Source of the DNA: Candidatus Fibrimonadaceae bacterium
GTDB lineage: Bacteria; Fibrobacterota; Fibrobacteria; Fibrobacterales; Fibrobacteraceae
Direction of reading: 5' to 3'
Assembly: GCA_031286305.1 (NCBI GenBank)
Contig: JAITUM010000018.1
Location: forward strand, 1-35,703
Length of the DNA: 35,703 nt
In this document: one piece after another, positions 8,763-17,829 of the stretch
Layout: each line of letters starts with the position of its first letter
Position numbering within the stretch: position 1 is the first letter of the stretch
The notes under the pieces: model-generated
What the model was told of the DNA's origin: nothing
Database searches by the model: none
Seen by the model: only the letters and a program-made list of their open reading frames with translations
Position numbers and translations under genes: made by a program

Positions 8763-9395
8763 ATGGAAATAGTCTTTAATAACACGCTGAAATCATTTAA
8801 CCCAAGTGAGGCGGGTTGGCAGTTCATGTGGGTCATCTTATTAGTGGGTCTTGCCGGTGTAGGTATAGCCGTTGAGAGATTCATCTATATTTTCCTGCGC
8901 TCTTCAAAAGGGCGCGATGCTTTTCTCAAAGATTTCGGTACTTTGGTAGCTGCAAAGAAATTTGAGGAAGCAACCTCTATGTGCAAAGCTTCCAAGCTTC
9001 CTATAGCGGCTGTTTTAGGGCCTGTAATAGAGGCTCGTGATAAAGGAAAAGATGCTCTTGTAGCAGCAGCAGATGCCGCATTCTTAACAGAGGCACCTCG
9101 AGTAAATAGATATTTATCCGTTATAACACTTATAGCTTCCGTTGCAACGCTCTTGGGCCTTGCAGGAACAATTTTCGGTCTGATTATAACCTTTGATGCT
9201 GTGGCTAACAAACCGGCTGCGGAACGCCCGCAAGCACTTGCGAATGGTATCTCTATAGCAATGGGTACAACGCTCTTGGGTCTTGCAGCTGCAATTCCTT
9301 TGCTCATGGTTCAGGGCTTTTTGACCATGCTTTCAGAACGCGTTATTCAAGAAATGGAAGAAAAGAGTTTAAAAGTTATCAACTCGTTTGCATAA
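8763..9395 (+). CDS. MotA/TolQ/ExbB proton-channel family protein
   Basis: The 210-residue inner-membrane protein has three membrane segments, at about 20-45, 116-145 and 158-188. The second and third carry the family signatures LLGLAGTIFGLIITF and ALANGISIAMGTTLLGLAAAIP. In ExbB/TolQ/AglR these helices form a pentamer around the ExbD/TolR dimer and couple proton flow to motion or envelope work. The length is close to TolQ/ExbB. It is followed 28 bp later by two ExbD-like genes and a TonB-like gene, so an ExbB-ExbD-type motor is nearly certain. The choice between Tol-Pal, TonB energisation and gliding remains open. Confidence 0.9.
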   Translation: MEIVFNNTLKSFNPSEAGWQFMWVILLVGLAGVGIAVERFIYIFLRSSKGRDAFLKDFGTLVAAKKFEEATSMCKASKLPIAAVLGPVIEARDKGKDALVAAADAAFLTEAPRVNRYLSVITLIASVATLLGLAGTIFGLIITFDAVANKPAAERPQALANGISIAMGTTLLGLAAAIPLLMVQGFLTMLSERVIQEMEEKSLKVINSFA

Positions 9396-9423: not shown

Positions 9424-10302
9424 ATGGCAAAACAGCTTAGAAAAGCAGAAAAGCAAAAAGAAATGGATATGCTGCCGGTTATGGCTCTCATGACCGTTCT
9501 TATCCCTGTTATCTTGACCATGGCATCTTTTCAAAAATTGGCCATTGTAGAGGTAAATTTACCTGAAAGGAGCGAGATATCCATGGATAGCGAGCCTCCT
9601 CCTCCGGATGATAATGCATTGAATTTGACCGTAGCCATTACCAGGGAATACCTTGAGATTTGGGCACGCGGCGGTTCTTTGCCTCGCGAGTATTATAAGG
9701 AAATGTGGACATTCCGTTGCAGAAGCGATGGCGACACAATCACTTATGATCCAGCCACCTTTGTCTATGATGATAAGGGGGCAGCGAAAAATCCACCTAA
9801 ATGCCAGGATGGCAGGGAGCTGGATTCGGAGAAGTTCAGGTATTCAATAGAAACCATACATCTATGGGCTTTGCATAAGGAGAGTGAAGAAGATCCGGGC
9901 AAAATAAAAATGTCCGTTTATAGCAAAACCGACTCCGCTTACTTAGATGGAAACAATGAATTTATCACGGATATATCTTTGGCAAGGCCCGGTTCAACGG
10001 TTGCAACTCTAGCTGAAAGCTCCGCTAGGAGGCTTGCTTGCGGGCAATCTGCTCCGGGTGTGGAAGATATATGCTATGATGGCAAACCTGCGATAAGTTT
10101 AAGACCTCGCAGTGCTTATGATGAGCTTGCAAAAACTCTCATGATGATTCATAATCGTTTTGTAGATAGCCCTGATGCCGATAACATAATTGTTTTGGCT
10201 GATGATGACACGGCTTTTGACAAAATTATCAGTGTTATGGATAGAGCACGTGATTCGGGATTCTTTAAAATCAACCTAGCCAAATTGGCTGCAGGAGGGT
10301 AA
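9424..10302 (+). CDS. Enlarged ExbD/TolR-like protein lacking the transmembrane Asp
   Basis: This is a 292-residue type II membrane protein: a short basic N-terminus, one membrane helix (about 17-35, LPVMALMTVLIPVILTMASF) and a long periplasmic part. It ends in an ExbD-like segment (NIIVLADDDTAFDKIISVMDRARDSGFFKINLAKL region). Typical ExbD/TolR are about 140 residues, so about 150 residues are inserted, including four cysteines (FRCRSD, PPKCQD, RLACGQ, DICYDG). At the position of the proton-binding Asp (TPLIDV in ExbD, Asp21 in the next gene) it has Ala21. ATG 9424 is chosen over TTG 9418 because GGAG at 9413-9416 is 7 nt away. It is probably a structural partner of the functional ExbD. Confidence 0.7.
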   Translation: MAKQLRKAEKQKEMDMLPVMALMTVLIPVILTMASFQKLAIVEVNLPERSEISMDSEPPPPDDNALNLTVAITREYLEIWARGGSLPREYYKEMWTFRCRSDGDTITYDPATFVYDDKGAAKNPPKCQDGRELDSEKFRYSIETIHLWALHKESEEDPGKIKMSVYSKTDSAYLDGNNEFITDISLARPGSTVATLAESSARRLACGQSAPGVEDICYDGKPAISLRPRSAYDELAKTLMMIHNRFVDSPDADNIIVLADDDTAFDKIISVMDRARDSGFFKINLAKLAAGG

Positions 10303-10303
10303 A

Positions 10304-10795
10304 ATGGCAAGAAAAGTTAGGCAATATGGTGATATGCCTCAGTTTTCACTAACATCCATGATGGACATTATGACCATTATTCTAGTGTTCATGATTAAGC
10401 AGGTGGATAGCGAAGGTCAGTTGATAACAGCTGCTGAAAACTTGGTTTTGCCAAACTCAACATCCACAAAAACACCTAAGGAAGTTTCTTTGGGTTTGGT
10501 TGTTGATGCAAACTGGGTTTTGGTTGATGGTGATCGGGTTGTGGAAACCAGCATTGTAGCCGGGCAAGACACGCTTTTGGTTGCCGCTTTAGACGAAGTG
10601 CTTAAAGATAAGCGCGAAATTGAAAAGCAAGCAAAAATAGCCAGAGGCGAAGCCGATGAAGGTGGTGGTAATATAATTGTGCAGTTAGATAAAAACATGC
10701 ATTATGATGTGATGTATAAAATCATGGCAACATGCGGCTTTTCGGGCTTTACCAATGTTGCATTTGCCGTTAACCAGTTGAATCCGGAGGAATAA
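10304..10795 (+). CDS. ExbD/TolR family biopolymer transport protein
   Basis: The 163-residue protein has one membrane helix (about 17-34) containing SLTSMMDIMTIILVFM, where Asp21 matches the essential proton-carrying Asp of ExbD/TolR. The periplasmic domain ends NIIVQLDKNMHYDVMYKIMA...GFTNVAFAV, the usual ExbD fold. In the family, a dimer sits in the ExbB/TolQ pentamer and couples proton-motive force to the periplasm. It starts 1 nt after the stop of the preceding ExbD-like gene (AGGAGGG just upstream) and ends 1 nt before the next start, so it is part of one tightly packed operon. Confidence 0.88.
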   Translation: MARKVRQYGDMPQFSLTSMMDIMTIILVFMIKQVDSEGQLITAAENLVLPNSTSTKTPKEVSLGLVVDANWVLVDGDRVVETSIVAGQDTLLVAALDEVLKDKREIEKQAKIARGEADEGGGNIIVQLDKNMHYDVMYKIMATCGFSGFTNVAFAVNQLNPEE

Positions 10796-12694: not shown

Positions 12695-12881
12695 AGTTTC
12701 GTTGGCTGGGAAGCGATACGCTGAGTTACATTGGTTGGGACATGGGACAAGCGGCGTGCTAAACTACGTTGGTCGGGACATGACTATGCACAAGTTTATG
12801 GCTCATATCCCAGCCAACGTAGCTTTGCATGTCGCTTGTCCCAGCCAACGAAACTCAGCGTATCGCTTGTCCCATGTCCCA
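12695..12881. repeat. Inverted cluster of three plus three degenerate repeat units
   Basis: Units of about 30-38 bp with the core CGTTGGCTGGGACAAGCG occur three times in one orientation (12695-12790) and three times in the opposite orientation (12802-12881). The innermost pair (CTACGTTGG... at 12764 and ...CCAACGTAG ending 12822) can fold into a roughly 20-bp imperfect hairpin. AGTTTCGTTGGCTGGGA (12695-12711) has an exact reverse complement at 12839-12855. The last 29 bp are identical to 137-165. No coding potential is credible here. Confidence 0.75.
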
Positions 12882-12890
12882 AAACAACGT

Positions 12891-12925
12891 TGCTATACTC
12901 CCCATTCCCCATTCCCCATTCCCAG
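12891..12925. repeat. C-rich tandem tract (CCCCATT type)
   Basis: Tandem CCCCATT units (CTCCCCATTCCCCATTCCCC and onward) lie directly upstream of the pilM promoter. They resemble the CCCCATA/CCCTATA tracts upstream of cheB and sdhC. Confidence 0.8.
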
Positions 12926-12926
12926 A

Positions 12927-12952
12927 CATTGAGTATTTACTATATTAACTTC
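12927..12952 (+). promoter_or_regulatory. pilM promoter, predicted leaderless
   Basis: ACATTGAGTATTTACTATAT carries a -10 box TATATT at 12941-12946, the same TTTACTATATTA word as before cheB (sdhC has ATTACTATATTA). The GTG start of pilM is at 12953, only 6 nt past the -10 box, with no ribosome binding site. Transcription would begin at or next to the start codon. Confidence 0.6.
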
Positions 12953-14065
12953 GTGCGACTACACAATTTAATATCAAGGATACGTGGCGAGAGCAAGACG
13001 GTGGGTTTAGACATAGGTCACCGCTTGGCGAGAGTTGCTGTTGTTGAGCATAAACAAGGTATGAAAGGAACTTTGTTGGCTCTGGAACAAGAGACTATTC
13101 CAGAAGGAATTGTGGTAGACAATGAAATACGCAATGTTTCCGTTTTAATAGATAGAGTCCAAACCCTGCTCACTAGAGCCTCGCCCGGAGGCATAGATGG
13201 TGATTTTTTAATCTCGGTGAATTGGACTTCCGGGATTTTATGCGACAAAATGCTGGTAAAGCCTGTACCTAAGGTTCCCGAAAGAGAGCTTATACTGCAA
13301 ACTGCCCAAGGCAGACCACCCTTTGACGATGCCGGCAATATTTTAGACTACTCCATTTTGGAATACAAAGAAGAAGGCATAGAGGCAATGATAGTGGCAG
13401 CTAAAAAAGATAGCCTGACCGCTTGGATAAATTTATTCCAGGCACTGAACATAAAACTTTGCGCCATAGATGTAGATGCTTTTGTTTTGAGCAATATATA
13501 TTCCGCCTCAAGAGCAGATATTTCCGGATTATCATCGGGAGGAGAGGCGGAAATGGATGAATCGGTTTTGCTTCTGAATTTTGGGCACGGCAAATCTTAC
13601 GCTGCTCTTTTGCGGAATGGGCACTTTAGCACGGCCCGCTCAATATTGGGCGGTTCGGTTTCCGATTTGCAAGAGCAACTGTCCGGACCATTGGGAATAT
13701 TGCCCGAGCAGAGCGGGGAATTGCTTATGGGAACCGGAGCTAGAGACTCGGAACTGGATGATTCCAAAATAAAATTTGCAACAGAATTTGTTTTTGAAGA
13801 AGTAGCCATGAAAGTCGACACCGCACTTCGCTATTTCAGTTCAGCCGACAATTATAAAAAACCAACTAAAATGGTACTTACGGGTGGAGGCTCAAATATA
13901 ATTGGTTTGGAAGCATTCCTTGCAGACAGGTTATCCGTGCAATCTGTGCAATTAAATCCGTTTAAAAATGTAGAACTGGACAAAAGTCGCTTTCTTGGAG
14001 TTGATTGGAACACTGCTGCCAGCACATACTCTGTTGCTTTGGGTCTTGCCCTGAGGAGATTTTAA
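12953..14065 (+). CDS. pilM: Type IV pilus assembly ATPase-fold protein PilM
   Basis: The 370-residue protein has an actin/FtsA-like fold. The first phosphate loop is TVGLDIGHRLARVAVVEH (about 14-31), then VLLLNFGHGKSYAALLRNG as second phosphate motif, and MVLTGGGSNIIGLEAFLADR as adenosine motif near the C-terminus. PilM is cytoplasmic and binds the N-terminal INLLP motif of PilN, forming the inner-membrane alignment platform of the pilus. The frame is open far upstream through repeat DNA. GTG 12953 is chosen because it lies 6 nt after a TATATT box and gives the expected N-terminus (RLHNLISRIRGESKTVGLDI). The stop overlaps the pilN start (TAATG). Confidence 0.85.
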   Translation: MRLHNLISRIRGESKTVGLDIGHRLARVAVVEHKQGMKGTLLALEQETIPEGIVVDNEIRNVSVLIDRVQTLLTRASPGGIDGDFLISVNWTSGILCDKMLVKPVPKVPERELILQTAQGRPPFDDAGNILDYSILEYKEEGIEAMIVAAKKDSLTAWINLFQALNIKLCAIDVDAFVLSNIYSASRADISGLSSGGEAEMDESVLLLNFGHGKSYAALLRNGHFSTARSILGGSVSDLQEQLSGPLGILPEQSGELLMGTGARDSELDDSKIKFATEFVFEEVAMKVDTALRYFSSADNYKKPTKMVLTGGGSNIIGLEAFLADRLSVQSVQLNPFKNVELDKSRFLGVDWNTAASTYSVALGLALRRF

Positions 14066-14670
14066 TGGCAAACCTGCAAAGAAATAGTTCATTTATTGAA
14101 ATAAATCTTTTACCTTCAGAGTACAAACGCACTAAGGTAGATTTGTCTTGGCTTTCCGATGCACGTGTTGTGTGGTCAACATTTGCGCTCATCTTGGTAT
14201 CTGTGGTTATGCTGGCCGTGTATGTTTACATAACAGACACTATACACGAACTGGAAAAGGCCGTTGGGCAAACCAAGCAAGCCGTTGAAAAAGAACGACC
14301 TCTGCTCGAAAAGATAAAAGAACTGGATGAGAAATTGGCAGTTATAAAACGAAAGAGCGATGCTCTGCGTTCCATACAAGTTAGCCGCAAGCGCTGGGTC
14401 ATTTTGTTTGAAGATTTATCCACCGCGCTTCCACACGGAACTTGGATAACCGGAATAACGCAAAGCGGAGACCAAATGGATATAAACTGCTCCACATGGA
14501 ATTTTGCGGAGGTTGCACTCTACATGCTCAGGCTGGAGCAAAAAGAAAGTGTTACCGGAGTTTCCCTTACAAGCATAAGCGCAGTTAGAATGAGTGATGA
14601 AGAGGCTTATAATTTTTCGCTTAAAGTTGCATTTAATTCGCAGCTAGGCATGGAAGATGGGGCGCGTTAG
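14065..14670 (+). CDS. pilN: Type IV pilus inner-membrane protein PilN
   Basis: The 201-residue protein begins with the PilM-binding motif FIEINLLPSEYKR (about 10-22). It has one membrane helix (about 40-60, VWSTFALILVSVVMLAVYVY), a coiled coil (LEKAVGQTKQAVEKERPLLE) and a ferredoxin-like periplasmic domain (LPHGTWITGITQSGDQMDI). This is the standard PilN plan. PilN pairs with PilO and carries PilM on its cytoplasmic tail. GAGGAG lies at 14053-14058, 6 nt before the ATG, and the start overlaps the pilM stop by one base. Confidence 0.85.
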   Translation: MANLQRNSSFIEINLLPSEYKRTKVDLSWLSDARVVWSTFALILVSVVMLAVYVYITDTIHELEKAVGQTKQAVEKERPLLEKIKELDEKLAVIKRKSDALRSIQVSRKRWVILFEDLSTALPHGTWITGITQSGDQMDINCSTWNFAEVALYMLRLEQKESVTGVSLTSISAVRMSDEEAYNFSLKVAFNSQLGMEDGAR

Positions 14671-14678
14671 GAGGTTTG

Positions 14679-15278
14679 ATGGCTGTTTCAAATTTTGACA
14701 TAAGAGACAAGAAGAACATATATCTCGTAGTTGCAATTCTCGCTTGCTTAGGTTCGGGTTATTCATTTTATGATTTTATTTGGACAAAGTTCCAAAAAGA
14801 AAAACAGCATCTTGTGGAGGAACAAAAAAACGCTCAAGATGAGTTGGATAGAATTAATGCGCAGAGACCGCGTATCCCAATGTTGGAAGCCGATTTGCGA
14901 AATGCAGAAATTGAGTTTGACAGATTAAAAGAAATGTTCCCCGAAGAAGAGAAGGTTCCCATTCGCTTGCAAGATTTATATGCGGTGGTTAGAGCTTCGG
15001 GTGTTAACATCCAAGCGTTTAGACCTGCCGGTTCGCAAGTTCAAGAACATTTTGTGGAAAACAATTATTCTTTTAATGTCAATGCCGGTTACCATATGCT
15101 GGGTGAGTTGTTTGCAGAAATAGCAAACTTCAATTATCCTACCACCATAAATAATTTAAAGTTAGTTCGTTCCGGTGTCATAGCCCAAGAGGTTAAAAAG
15201 GCGGAAGATCACGGATGGGATCCTATAACAATGGGTGTTTCTTTTGATTTAACTACGTTTACATCGAGGAAGCAATGA
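14679..15278 (+). CDS. pilO: Type IV pilus inner-membrane protein PilO
   Basis: The 199-residue protein has a membrane helix (about 16-33, IYLVVAILACLGSGYSFYDF), a coiled coil (about 40-90) and a C-terminal alpha/beta domain. That domain contains LYAVVRASGVNIQAFRP and GYHMLGELFAEIANF, typical of PilO. PilO heterodimerises with PilN and contacts PilP in the periplasm. ATG 14679 is chosen over TTG 14676 because GGAGG (14670-14674) fits better. It starts 8 nt after pilN and overlaps the next gene by 4 bp (ATGA). Confidence 0.85.
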   Translation: MAVSNFDIRDKKNIYLVVAILACLGSGYSFYDFIWTKFQKEKQHLVEEQKNAQDELDRINAQRPRIPMLEADLRNAEIEFDRLKEMFPEEEKVPIRLQDLYAVVRASGVNIQAFRPAGSQVQEHFVENNYSFNVNAGYHMLGELFAEIANFNYPTTINNLKLVRSGVIAQEVKKAEDHGWDPITMGVSFDLTTFTSRKQ

Positions 15279-16417
15279 TTATGAAAGGCAAGTTATTTTT
15301 GATTTTGGCAATATTTTTTGCAGTGTCTAATGCTCAGGATTTGCATCGTTTTTCTGTTATGCCCCCGAGAATTACAAATGTTTCAGTGCAAAAAAATTCG
15401 GAATGGGAAAAACTTTTGATAGTTTTAGATTTTGATATTCCCAAAAATGTGACTCCTGTGATAACGGATTCTACGGTTGAACTGTCATTTTTTGATGCGC
15501 CGAATTATTCGGATTTGTTTAGAACGGTTAATAGCACATTCTCAAGAGGTTTGGCTTGGAACAATGGCAAGCTCACTATATTTTTATATCGCGGCAGAAA
15601 ACCGGCTGTTATGATTATGAAAAACAGGTTGCTTTTGCAACATGAAACAAGGCCGGGCAGGTTGGAGAATTGGCAGGCCACATCAACAAGCGTAAAGGGT
15701 TCAAATTTCTTTTTGCCGAGTTATGAACCTTTAGCTCAGAGCACATCTGATTTTGCAAGAACCATGGAGCGGAGACCCATGACAATTCCTTCTCTTGCGC
15801 AAACAATACAAGTTAAAAGAACGGATGCTTCTTATTTGGTAGCCGAAGATGTGATATCCGTTTTTCCCACTCCTAGTGAAGGCAGGCCTATAGGTGCTTT
15901 GGAATTTGGCGATCGTTTGAAAGTTTTAGATAGGCGCGACCCATATTATAAAATACGCCACGGCGACAGAGAAGGTTTTGTGTTTCAGCGCGATGTTCTT
16001 TTAGAAGCACAGCTTACCACTTCTCAAAAAGACAAGCTTCGCCGCTTGAGAAAAGATTCGCCGGGCGGTGCGGATAGTGTTGCTTATAAGTTTGGCTGGA
16101 GAGATAGCGATAGAATTGTTTATAGCTCCTATGGTTCCAGAGATCCTTTTGTAGAGGTTAAGAACTTTGGAAGCGAAGGCATTAACATTGATAATTTAAT
16201 TTTGGCAGGCGTTGTTTATGAAAATGAGATGCCTATGGCTCTTTTTTCTGATAACAAAATTAGAGGGCAATCTTACACTCTTCACGAGGGCGACACCATT
16301 AATAACGGCAGAGTACTTAAAATTTCAAGAAACGAAGTGCTGTTCCTGTTGCAGGAATATGGCGTGAGCCGTCGTTATAAAATGTCTTTGCCCGATAAAT
16401 TTGGGGGTATTAAATGA
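15275..16417 (+). CDS. PilP-like protein with N-terminal AMIN-like and SH3 domains
   Basis: The 380-residue exported protein (signal peptide LFLILAIFFAVSNAQ) is about twice the usual PilP length. Residues about 25-130 look like an AMIN-type beta domain (LLIVLDFDIPKNVTPVITDS...LTIFLYRGRKP). Residues about 185-245 form an SH3b-like domain (YLVAEDVISVFPTPSEG, LEFGDRLKVLDRRDPYYKIR). The C-terminus (about 285-375; SRDPFVEVKNF, LAGVVYENEMPMALFSDNK, SYTLHEGDTINNGRVLKI) is a PilP/GspC-like homology region. Classical PilP is a lipoprotein, but no lipobox Cys is visible here. It probably bridges PilNO and the PilQ secretin and supplies a peptidoglycan/AMIN function missing from PilQ. ATG 15281 is an alternative start. 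Confidence 0.72.
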   Translation: MIMKGKLFLILAIFFAVSNAQDLHRFSVMPPRITNVSVQKNSEWEKLLIVLDFDIPKNVTPVITDSTVELSFFDAPNYSDLFRTVNSTFSRGLAWNNGKLTIFLYRGRKPAVMIMKNRLLLQHETRPGRLENWQATSTSVKGSNFFLPSYEPLAQSTSDFARTMERRPMTIPSLAQTIQVKRTDASYLVAEDVISVFPTPSEGRPIGALEFGDRLKVLDRRDPYYKIRHGDREGFVFQRDVLLEAQLTTSQKDKLRRLRKDSPGGADSVAYKFGWRDSDRIVYSSYGSRDPFVEVKNFGSEGINIDNLILAGVVYENEMPMALFSDNKIRGQSYTLHEGDTINNGRVLKISRNEVLFLLQEYGVSRRYKMSLPDKFGGIK

Positions 16418-17829
16418 AAAGGGGTTCAATGAAAAAAAGCTTCGTGACAAGTATCTTGCTTGTTCTAACTCTAACACTTTCTTCCTTTGCTGCCGTAGGC
16501 GATAGCAAAAGGTATGATATGACCTTTGTGGATGCGGATTTCCAGTCTGTTTTCCATTCAATATCCCGGCTTGCAAACCGAGACATCTTGCTTGCTCCTG
16601 ATGTTCAAGGAAGGCTTTCCATGACAGTCACTCAAAAAACGTGGCTTGAGATGATGGAGATTGTGTGCAACCTGTACGATTTAACATGGCTTTTTGAGAG
16701 CAATTACATAAGCGTTCAAAGAACTGCTACTTATCAGCACAAGATAATTATGGAATCTGAAAAGCGCGAGCAAAGTGACATGGTTGCACCGCTTGCAAGG
16801 CGTAGCTTCCAAATTAAACATGCCTCCGCTGCTGAGATGGCTTCTGTTTTGCAAACTATTAAGTCTTCGCGCGGAAACATTTCCGTGATAGAGCGCAACA
16901 ATGCCATTATAGTTTATGATACCGAAAAACGTTTGGAACAAATGCAAAATACTCTGAACGAATTGGATATTGAAACTTTGCAAATTGTTATCACTGCAAA
17001 ATTGGTTGTTGTTGACAGCCGCCTTGCAAATGATTTGGGAATAGACTGGACTAATGTAAATGTTAGCGGTTCAAGAATGAGTGCTACTTTTGAAAATACA
17101 CCAAGTATGGCCGGTATAGTTATGAGCAATGAAACTGTCACCGAGATTGTGAAGCCCACAACTGCATTGACGGTTAATGCCTTTGACAAAAACATGACCG
17201 CTAGAATTGCAAATATTTTGAGTGATTCTCGTTCTGAAATTTTGGCTAGCCCGCAAATTTCAACTTTAGATCACACTGAAGCTACCATTTTTATGGGAGA
17301 TGAAATTTCCATCAGAATTGTAGATGCAGCCGGTCAATCCGCTCAGCAGTTGGTGGAAAGCGGTATAAAGCTCACGGTCACTCCTCATATTGCCGGCGAT
17401 AACAGAATTTTGCTGGACTTGTATCCGGAAAACAACAGCTATAGCTACGACGAAAGAGGCAACGTTGTTATTAGCAAACAATGGGCGCAAACCAAGGTTG
17501 TTGTTTCAGATGGCGAAACCATTGTGATAGGTGGCTTGACCAAAAATGATGAGATGGAAACGGAAACCGGAATCCCATTCTTAAAAGACATTCCCATTTT
17601 GGGATATTTGTTCAAACATACAAGAAAAGAAGTTACTAAAAAAGATTTGGTTATATTTGTTACCCCACGCATAGTGCGCAACTACCTGTCTAATGCACCG
17701 GTGGCTAGAGCTTCGACTCCCGCTCCTGCTCCTGCTCCCGCTGCTGTGCCTGCTCCCGCTCCCGCTCCCAAAGCAACAGCGGTAGAAGCAGTAGAAAGCG
17801 ATGACTATGATTACGATGGCTGGGAATGA
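16414..17829 (+). CDS. pilQ: Type IV pilus secretin PilQ, short form
   Basis: The 471-residue outer-membrane secretin has a signal peptide (TSILLVLTLTLSSFAA) and an STN-like domain (about 30-100; YDMTFVDADFQSVFHSISRL). An N1 domain follows (about 125-190; FQIKHASAAEMASVLQTI), then the secretin barrel with ILASPQISTLDHTEATIFMG, WAQTKVVVSDGETIVIGGL and the canonical GIPFLKDIPILGYLFKH. The tail is Ala/Pro-rich then acidic (SDDYDYDGWE). Proteobacterial PilQ is about 700 residues with AMIN domains, which are absent here; an AMIN-like domain lies in the upstream PilP fusion. ATG 16429, with AGGGG just before it, is an equally plausible start. It overlaps both neighbours by 4 bp. Confidence 0.88.
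   Translation: MKRGSMKKSFVTSILLVLTLTLSSFAAVGDSKRYDMTFVDADFQSVFHSISRLANRDILLAPDVQGRLSMTVTQKTWLEMMEIVCNLYDLTWLFESNYISVQRTATYQHKIIMESEKREQSDMVAPLARRSFQIKHASAAEMASVLQTIKSSRGNISVIERNNAIIVYDTEKRLEQMQNTLNELDIETLQIVITAKLVVVDSRLANDLGIDWTNVNVSGSRMSATFENTPSMAGIVMSNETVTEIVKPTTALTVNAFDKNMTARIANILSDSRSEILASPQISTLDHTEATIFMGDEISIRIVDAAGQSAQQLVESGIKLTVTPHIAGDNRILLDLYPENNSYSYDERGNVVISKQWAQTKVVVSDGETIVIGGLTKNDEMETETGIPFLKDIPILGYLFKHTRKEVTKKDLVIFVTPRIVRNYLSNAPVARASTPAPAPAPAAVPAPAPAPKATAVEAVESDDYDYDGWE

Follow-up and report, generated by a model that had tools for sequence, protein, structure and literature searches.

How does an Exb/Tol-type motor run when one of its two pore-helix subunits has no aspartate to carry the proton? 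ExbD and TolR are described as homodimers with two such aspartates (PMC12215075), whereas the locus studied here encodes two diverged subunits with one aspartate between them. It lies in a 35,703-nucleotide stretch of DNA (the window), part of a 3.19 Mb MAG from the phylum Fibrobacterota, in which Pfam and NCBIfam profiles applied to the open reading frames reveal a same-strand run in the order OmpA-TPR-TPR-TolQ-ExbD-ExbD-TonB (Table 1), the last four genes being called here Q, D1, D2 and B. A single base separates D1 from D2, and likewise D2 from B, and the TPR/YbgF-like gene upstream of Q is kept in related loci. Directly downstream of the motor operon a CheR methyltransferase gene is followed by type IV pilus-like genes, including a PilM-like protein and a PilQ-like secretin (window 12731-17829). 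We read the system most readily as a motor of the Exb/Tol/Agl type of which a silent subunit is an integral part.

Table 1. Features of the motor operon (window positions) and two related features found at other loci.
Feature	Position	Strand	Basis
OmpA-family protein; C-terminal OmpA domain, N-terminal beta-helix	1142..2512	+	Pfam OmpA E 2.4e-18; NosD/Beta_helix
TPR protein, 753 aa	2520..4781	+	Pfam TPR families
TPR/YbgF-like protein, 1284 aa	4810..8664	+	Pfam TPR_6 5.3e-25; NCBIfam tol_pal_ybgF 147 bits, cut-off 90.1
Q, TolQ/ExbB-type ring subunit, 210 aa	8763..9395	+	Pfam MotA_ExbB (PF01618) 9.9e-22, 77.5 bits
Q Thr136, counterpart of lumen Thr145 (TolQ) / Thr148 (ExbB)	9168..9170	+	Thr in 72/72 homologues
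Q Thr170, counterpart of lumen Thr178 (TolQ) / Thr181 (ExbB)	9270..9272	+	Thr in 72/72 homologues
D1, ExbD/TolR homologue without the proton-carrying Asp, 292 aa, ATG start	9424..10302	+	Pfam ExbD (PF02472) 38.2 bits, cut-off 25.4
D1 Ala21 codon (gct) at the Asp position	9484..9486	+	alignment to ExbD; homologues N/G/S/A/C, never D/E
D1 Pro28 (+7), membrane helix	9505..9507	+	75/79 homologues; 134/142 over all D1 types (classing that used the helix itself)
Insertion of ~125 residues (D1 ~98-225) in the TolR-like periplasmic domain	9715..10098	+	boundaries approximate
D2, ExbD/TolR homologue with Asp21, 163 aa	10304..10795	+	Pfam ExbD 57.6 bits
D2 Asp21 codon (gac), proton-carrying position	10364..10366	+	Asp in 69/69 homologues; 130/130 by periplasmic classing
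D2 Lys32 (+11), membrane helix	10397..10399	+	Lys in 59/69 homologues; 111/131 over all types (classing that used the helix itself)
B, TonB-like transducer with AgmX/PglI C-terminal domain, 318 aa	10797..11753	+	NCBIfam NF033768 69.8 bits, cut-off 40; TonB_C 3.1e-07
D2-D1 lipoprotein	L098:1823-2563, contig C68 of the window's genome		without membrane pore helices
Type III fusion loci (Q2-D1, neutral site)	L105, L107, L108, L127, L128, L130-L140, L174, L175		

Q belongs to the TolQ/ExbB family both by its profile score and by its two lumen threonines. At a third-helix position where TolQ has a glutamate (GIAEAL) Q reads GISIAM, with Ile165 (window 9255-9257), and the 72 homologues carry Ile, Val, Met and Glu there in 35, 30, 6 and 1 cases, respectively. 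For the two ExbD-like proteins, the first-pass annotation had set Asp21 of D2 opposite Ala21 of D1 and described D1 as about twice the normal length, and both statements are borne out by the lengths in Table 1, by reading of both proteins and by a phmmer alignment against the PDB, in which the D1 segment qkemdmlpvmalm is matched with lheinvtpfidvm of ExbD and Ala21 falls opposite the ExbD aspartate. No acidic residue is present between D1 residues 16 and 36 that might occupy the functional position within the membrane. Asp15 and Glu13, which lie 6 and 8 residues before the site, are rejected as displaced acids, as they correspond to the N/D and E/D positions of the canonical pore-helix motif of ExbD, [ED]-x-[DN]-x-x-P, which D1 retains; the canonical ExbDs of the same genome also carry an aspartate at -6 together with that at the site. 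A glutamate at +14, which many D1s carry towards the distal end of the helix, is absent from the window D1 and is likewise rejected. D1 thus has the score, membrane helix and periplasmic fold of the ExbD/TolR family and is missing only the helix aspartate, so we file it as an ExbD/TolR homologue rather than as a proton-carrying ExbD/TolR. D2 has the family score, the fold and the aspartate. Elsewhere in the window's genome there are three more helix-bearing ExbD genes (contigs C20, C44 and C260), and all three encode the aspartate.

The neutral site is a property of the phylum. Among 79 D1 homologues found in the first loci by phmmer with the window proteins (the lipoprotein at L005, which has no helix, was left out as misaligned) the residue is Asn in 33, Gly in 25, Ser in 12, Ala in 5 and Cys in 4; the D2 homologues of the same loci have Asp in 69 of 69, and the pairing of a neutral with an Asp site holds locus by locus in all 69. 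Extending the survey to all distinct adjacent ExbD pairs at the loci collected from Fibrobacterota gives the same pairing in 132 of 132, the upstream gene being always the neutral one (Asn 83, Gly 29, Ser 12, Ala 5, Cys 3). To keep this count from being circular, open reading frames were classed by profiles of the periplasmic region, and the site was read from a helix profile with the site column masked. The resulting D1 class of 147 distinct proteins comprises 142 with a readable site, in none of which is it Asp or Glu, four without an alignable helix (two cut by contig ends at L123 and L113, a secreted protein in L096 and the lipoprotein in L005) and one with Asp (L179, 18 bits), a canonical ExbD weakly misclassed as D1. 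By the same classing, 29 single ExbDs carry Asp and 10 distinct lone D1-type genes a neutral residue. Profile matches at E <= 1e-15 occur in 140 of 167 phylum genomes for D1 and in 147 of 167 for D2, and this spread, with its invariant positions, leads us to reject a pseudogene or local mutation in the window. Outside the phylum, tblastn with D1, D2 and a short D1 returned no match in the plasmids collection, nor did a scan of viral_contigs return any relative.

The two pore helices are separately specialised, D1 through the proline at +7 and D2 through the lysine at +11 (Table 1). An acidic residue at +14 is found in D1 only in 51 of the 132 pairs, in D2 only in 40, in neither in 41 and never in both, a pattern confounded by ancestry for which common descent may account. 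The annotation had also pointed to four extra cysteines in D1; they are present (C99, C127, C206 and C217) but are kept in only 41, 39, 10 and 10 of the 79 homologues, and with such poor conservation they form no part of the architecture. Neither they nor the additional length can be the cause of the asymmetry, as short D1s (~165-180 aa) also lack the aspartate. An AF2 model of D1 (mean pLDDT 82.8) has a single helix at residues 17-36 and resembles TolR (5by4; Z 11.7, 95 residues, 3.9 Å, the match spanning residues 29-289), while its Z of 8.7 to ExbD lies level with unrelated entries (8.8 and below). The insertion in the periplasmic domain is absent from short D1s and from the D2-D1 lipoprotein, in which the D1 profile match skips positions 100-209. 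Weak Foldseek likeness of D1 to MreB/Hsp70 (E >= 0.005) was rejected as reflecting a common arrangement. The D2 model (pLDDT 70.4) has the TolR/ExbD periplasmic fold with a Foldseek probability of 1.00.

The pairs fall into four paralogous types, I-IV (our own labels). Type I, that of the window with its long D1, accounts for 80 of the 132 pairs; types II and IV, with short D1s and Asn at the site in those inspected, account for 17 each and were divided by identity ranking, and the tree recovers each as a clade of its own; and in the 18 pairs of type III a TolQ protein carries D1 as its C-terminal half. This fusion is a single open frame of 432-450 aa at 18 loci of 18 genomes, followed each time by a free Asp-bearing D2, with Asn (16) or Gly (2) at its site; L169, whose reading frame is over-long and has no TolQ match, was left out of the count. 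The one fusion tested matches both Pfam MotA_ExbB and ExbD, and the link between the two parts is conserved in the 14 compared. Fifteen of the 18 loci also have a free-standing TolQ gene upstream; the remaining three start at the edge of a locus or contig, or close to it. The C-terminus of TolQ and the N-terminus of ExbD are both cytoplasmic, so the topology of the fusion fits. In a tree of 88 sequences and 131 columns, calculated under LG+G4 with the site column removed, the D2 clade has a support of 100, the canonical ExbD clade 99 and the D1 grouping a weak 41. Each of the four types forms a clade on the D1 side and again on the D2 side, indicating that the pairing is older than the types, and it is likely from these sequences that the aspartate was lost a single time.

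The annotation had proposed a heterodimeric stator with one dead and one active proton site. The two kinds of site are strongly supported throughout the phylum; the placing of D1 and D2 together in one ring is partly supported, and we regard as the best reading, with a probability of roughly 0.6, that the two form an obligate hetero-axle with a single proton site inside a TolQ-like ring. A close known system is the AglRQS/Glt machinery for gliding and sporulation in Myxococcus xanthus, which likewise has one TolQ-like protein, two TolR-like proteins and a TonB-like protein of the GltG/AgmX type, and an output that crosses the envelope. The window carries that gene set, including a transducer recognised as GltG-type by its AgmX/PglI domain, while scores to the NCBIfam equivalogs stay far below their cut-offs (GltG 53.7 bits against 650, GltJ 23.3 against 450). 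In other phyla, too, one of the two TolR-like proteins (AglS or a counterpart) might be proton-silent without this having been noted, which would bear on novelty and is compatible with the hetero-axle; the shared composition speaks for it, as does the report in 2011 of AglRQS/Glt homologues in one member of the Fibrobacteres (PMC3169522, in part). We think it unlikely, if the strongest of the alternatives, as a 2022 review assigns a conserved aspartate to both AglQ and AglS (PMC9389320; compared by description), whereas the Fibrobacterota partner D1 is always without. The same review, in the part available to us, treats the question of homo- or heterodimers of AglQ and AglS as unsettled.

Among other relatives, TonB-ExbB-ExbD and TolQ-TolR-TolA have in common with the window system the Pfam families, the predicted fold, the lumen threonines and a TonB-like partner. 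The GldLM motor of Bacteroidota (type 9 secretion and gliding) also has an axle subunit without a mid-membrane proton-carrying aspartate, as in D1, but there the ring subunit GldL carries the key Glu49 (PMC8986121), whereas here the axle keeps its acidic site on D2. TPH-vWA proteins resemble the present case in pairing two different pore-helix proteins with one TolQ-like ring, though with a conserved aspartate in each monomer and no tolR/exbD gene (PMC12204202). In the portions available to us of PMC12204202, PMC9389320, PMC9120999 and PMC8986121 there is no silent-site partner and no TolQ/TolR or ExbB/ExbD fusion, and literature searches for D25N/D32N dominance and for AglQ/AglS with aspartate gave no match.

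Obligate pairing of D1 and D2 is supported by several features of the gene sequences: the invariant gene order, the presence in two genomes (L060 and L063, each with a full operon elsewhere) of D1-D2-B modules that have no Q gene next to them, the TolQ-D1 fusion and a second natural fusion, of D2 with D1. The latter is a lipoprotein-like protein of the window's genome with D2-type (46-123) and D1-type (154-252) periplasmic domains in one chain; it is confined to that genome, with one weak match elsewhere among the 111 genomes of the family. Pieces of a second copy lie on contig C82. Were D1 and D2 instead to form two homodimers, with D2 as an ordinary axle and D1 in a separate, non-conducting complex (a brake, a reserve or a structural unit) using the same ring, the one-to-one adjacency in 132 pairs, the modules, both fusions and the consistent differences between the two helices would be hard to account for. 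Yet the periplasmic domains of TolR and ExbD are known to be dimers, and lone D1 copies exist. At least three of the 10 lie at contig ends and the others are extra copies in genomes with a full operon; since two of them adjoin a B gene (L071 and L115), D2 may not always be needed for D1 to work. We judge the two homodimers improbable, by a narrow step more so than a silent AglS. Least probable of all is that D1 sits at the rim of the ring as an accessory transducer in the manner of TonB or TolA and D2 alone fills the pore, which would suit the freedom of the D1 site to vary among small residues, the large periplasmic domain with its insertion and the TolQ fusion, which is compatible with a peripheral place, but not the retained pore-helix motif, nor a periplasmic fold that is that of TolR rather than a TonB-like domain in an operon that already has a TonB-like protein.

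Two further observations concern D1-type sequences away from the operon. Lone D1-type genes, some beside B and with the full operon elsewhere in the genome, are found at L056, L071, L092, L115, L117 and L120. At L096:2381-5281 (genome G066, contig C9) two Fib_succ_major proteins have a TonB_C-type C-terminus, and the larger also contains a stretch like the D1 periplasmic region; these surface proteins look as if they had captured parts of D1 and B.

In the hetero-axle model, Q would form a TolQ/ExbB-type ring, probably a pentamer, with a Q:D1:D2 stoichiometry of 5:1:1 by analogy with homologues, and the pore would hold one D1 and one D2 helix as a fixed pair. The D2 aspartate would be the only protonatable site, facing the conserved threonine ring of Q, and the matching position of D1 (Asn, Gly, Ser, Ala or Cys) would stay neutral at all times, so that a single proton site would cycle per axle. 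Force would pass through the periplasmic domains of D1, enlarged in the window, and D2 and through B, reaching the operon's TPR and OmpA proteins, and the output would probably be an outer-membrane apparatus, linked in Fibrobacter succinogenes to cellulose adhesion and degradation. The two aspartates of TolR are described in different environments, one at the threonines and the other facing a cytoplasmic cavity (PMC12215075), and in the published turnstile a proton is swapped between two sites, one every 36 degrees and 10 per turn, a review noting that 5 protons per turn would demand an entirely new model (PMC9389320). With one site fixed as neutral the two-site swap could not occur. A single-site axle would have to use about 5 protons per turn, in 72-degree or limping steps, or else to rock or pull instead of turning; a variant able to turn while both sites are neutral could still manage five. 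The covalent link of TolQ to D1 in type III would, moreover, keep D1 from turning without limit relative to the ring subunit to which it is joined. It is tempting to go further and see a family of one-site motors whose silent arm predates the split of the four systems, whose fused type rocks or pulls, and which would be a counter-example to the two-site turnstile and the engine of cellulose adhesion in this phylum; this larger picture is tentative, and we place it below even odds.

As for function, the operon matches FSU_2396-2403 of F. succinogenes S85 by gene order and protein mass alone: in the portion of PMC4619616 available to us these comprise an OmpA protein (FSU_2396), two TPR proteins of 83.8 and 146.7 kDa (FSU_2397 and 2398), a TolQ/ExbB protein of 23.1 kDa (FSU_2400), two ExbDs of 32.4 and 18.2 kDa (FSU_2401 and 2402) and a TonB protein of 32.5 kDa (FSU_2403). 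Computed masses at fifteen related loci of the same family are 32.1-32.8 kDa for D1 and 18.1-19.6 kDa for D2. All seven FSU proteins (2396, 2397, 2398, 2400, 2401, 2402 and 2403) are reported as increased on cellulose, and a complex that contains cellulases and a fibro-slime protein is said to include FSU_2396/2397 (PMC6851124); FSU_2401-2403 were detected on cellulose only (PMC4619616). The TonB/ExbB/ExbD genes of F. succinogenes were read by the authors as serving nutrient (cellodextrin) uptake (PMC6851124), and the organism, in which motility is described as undemonstrated, degrades cellulose along a crystallographic axis (PMC3079729).

The fixed neutral/Asp pair of Fibrobacterota suggests, as judged from its sequences, a one-site motor where known relatives have two. 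A silent site that is fixed, and sometimes tied to the ring itself, makes it possible to test if a 5:2 motor depends on both of its acidic sites, and the pair likewise opens to test the rotation of 5:2 motors outside the flagellum and the dimer question of AglQ and AglS. For F. succinogenes, it offers a candidate PMF-driven engine for the cellulose-associated OmpA/TPR complex.
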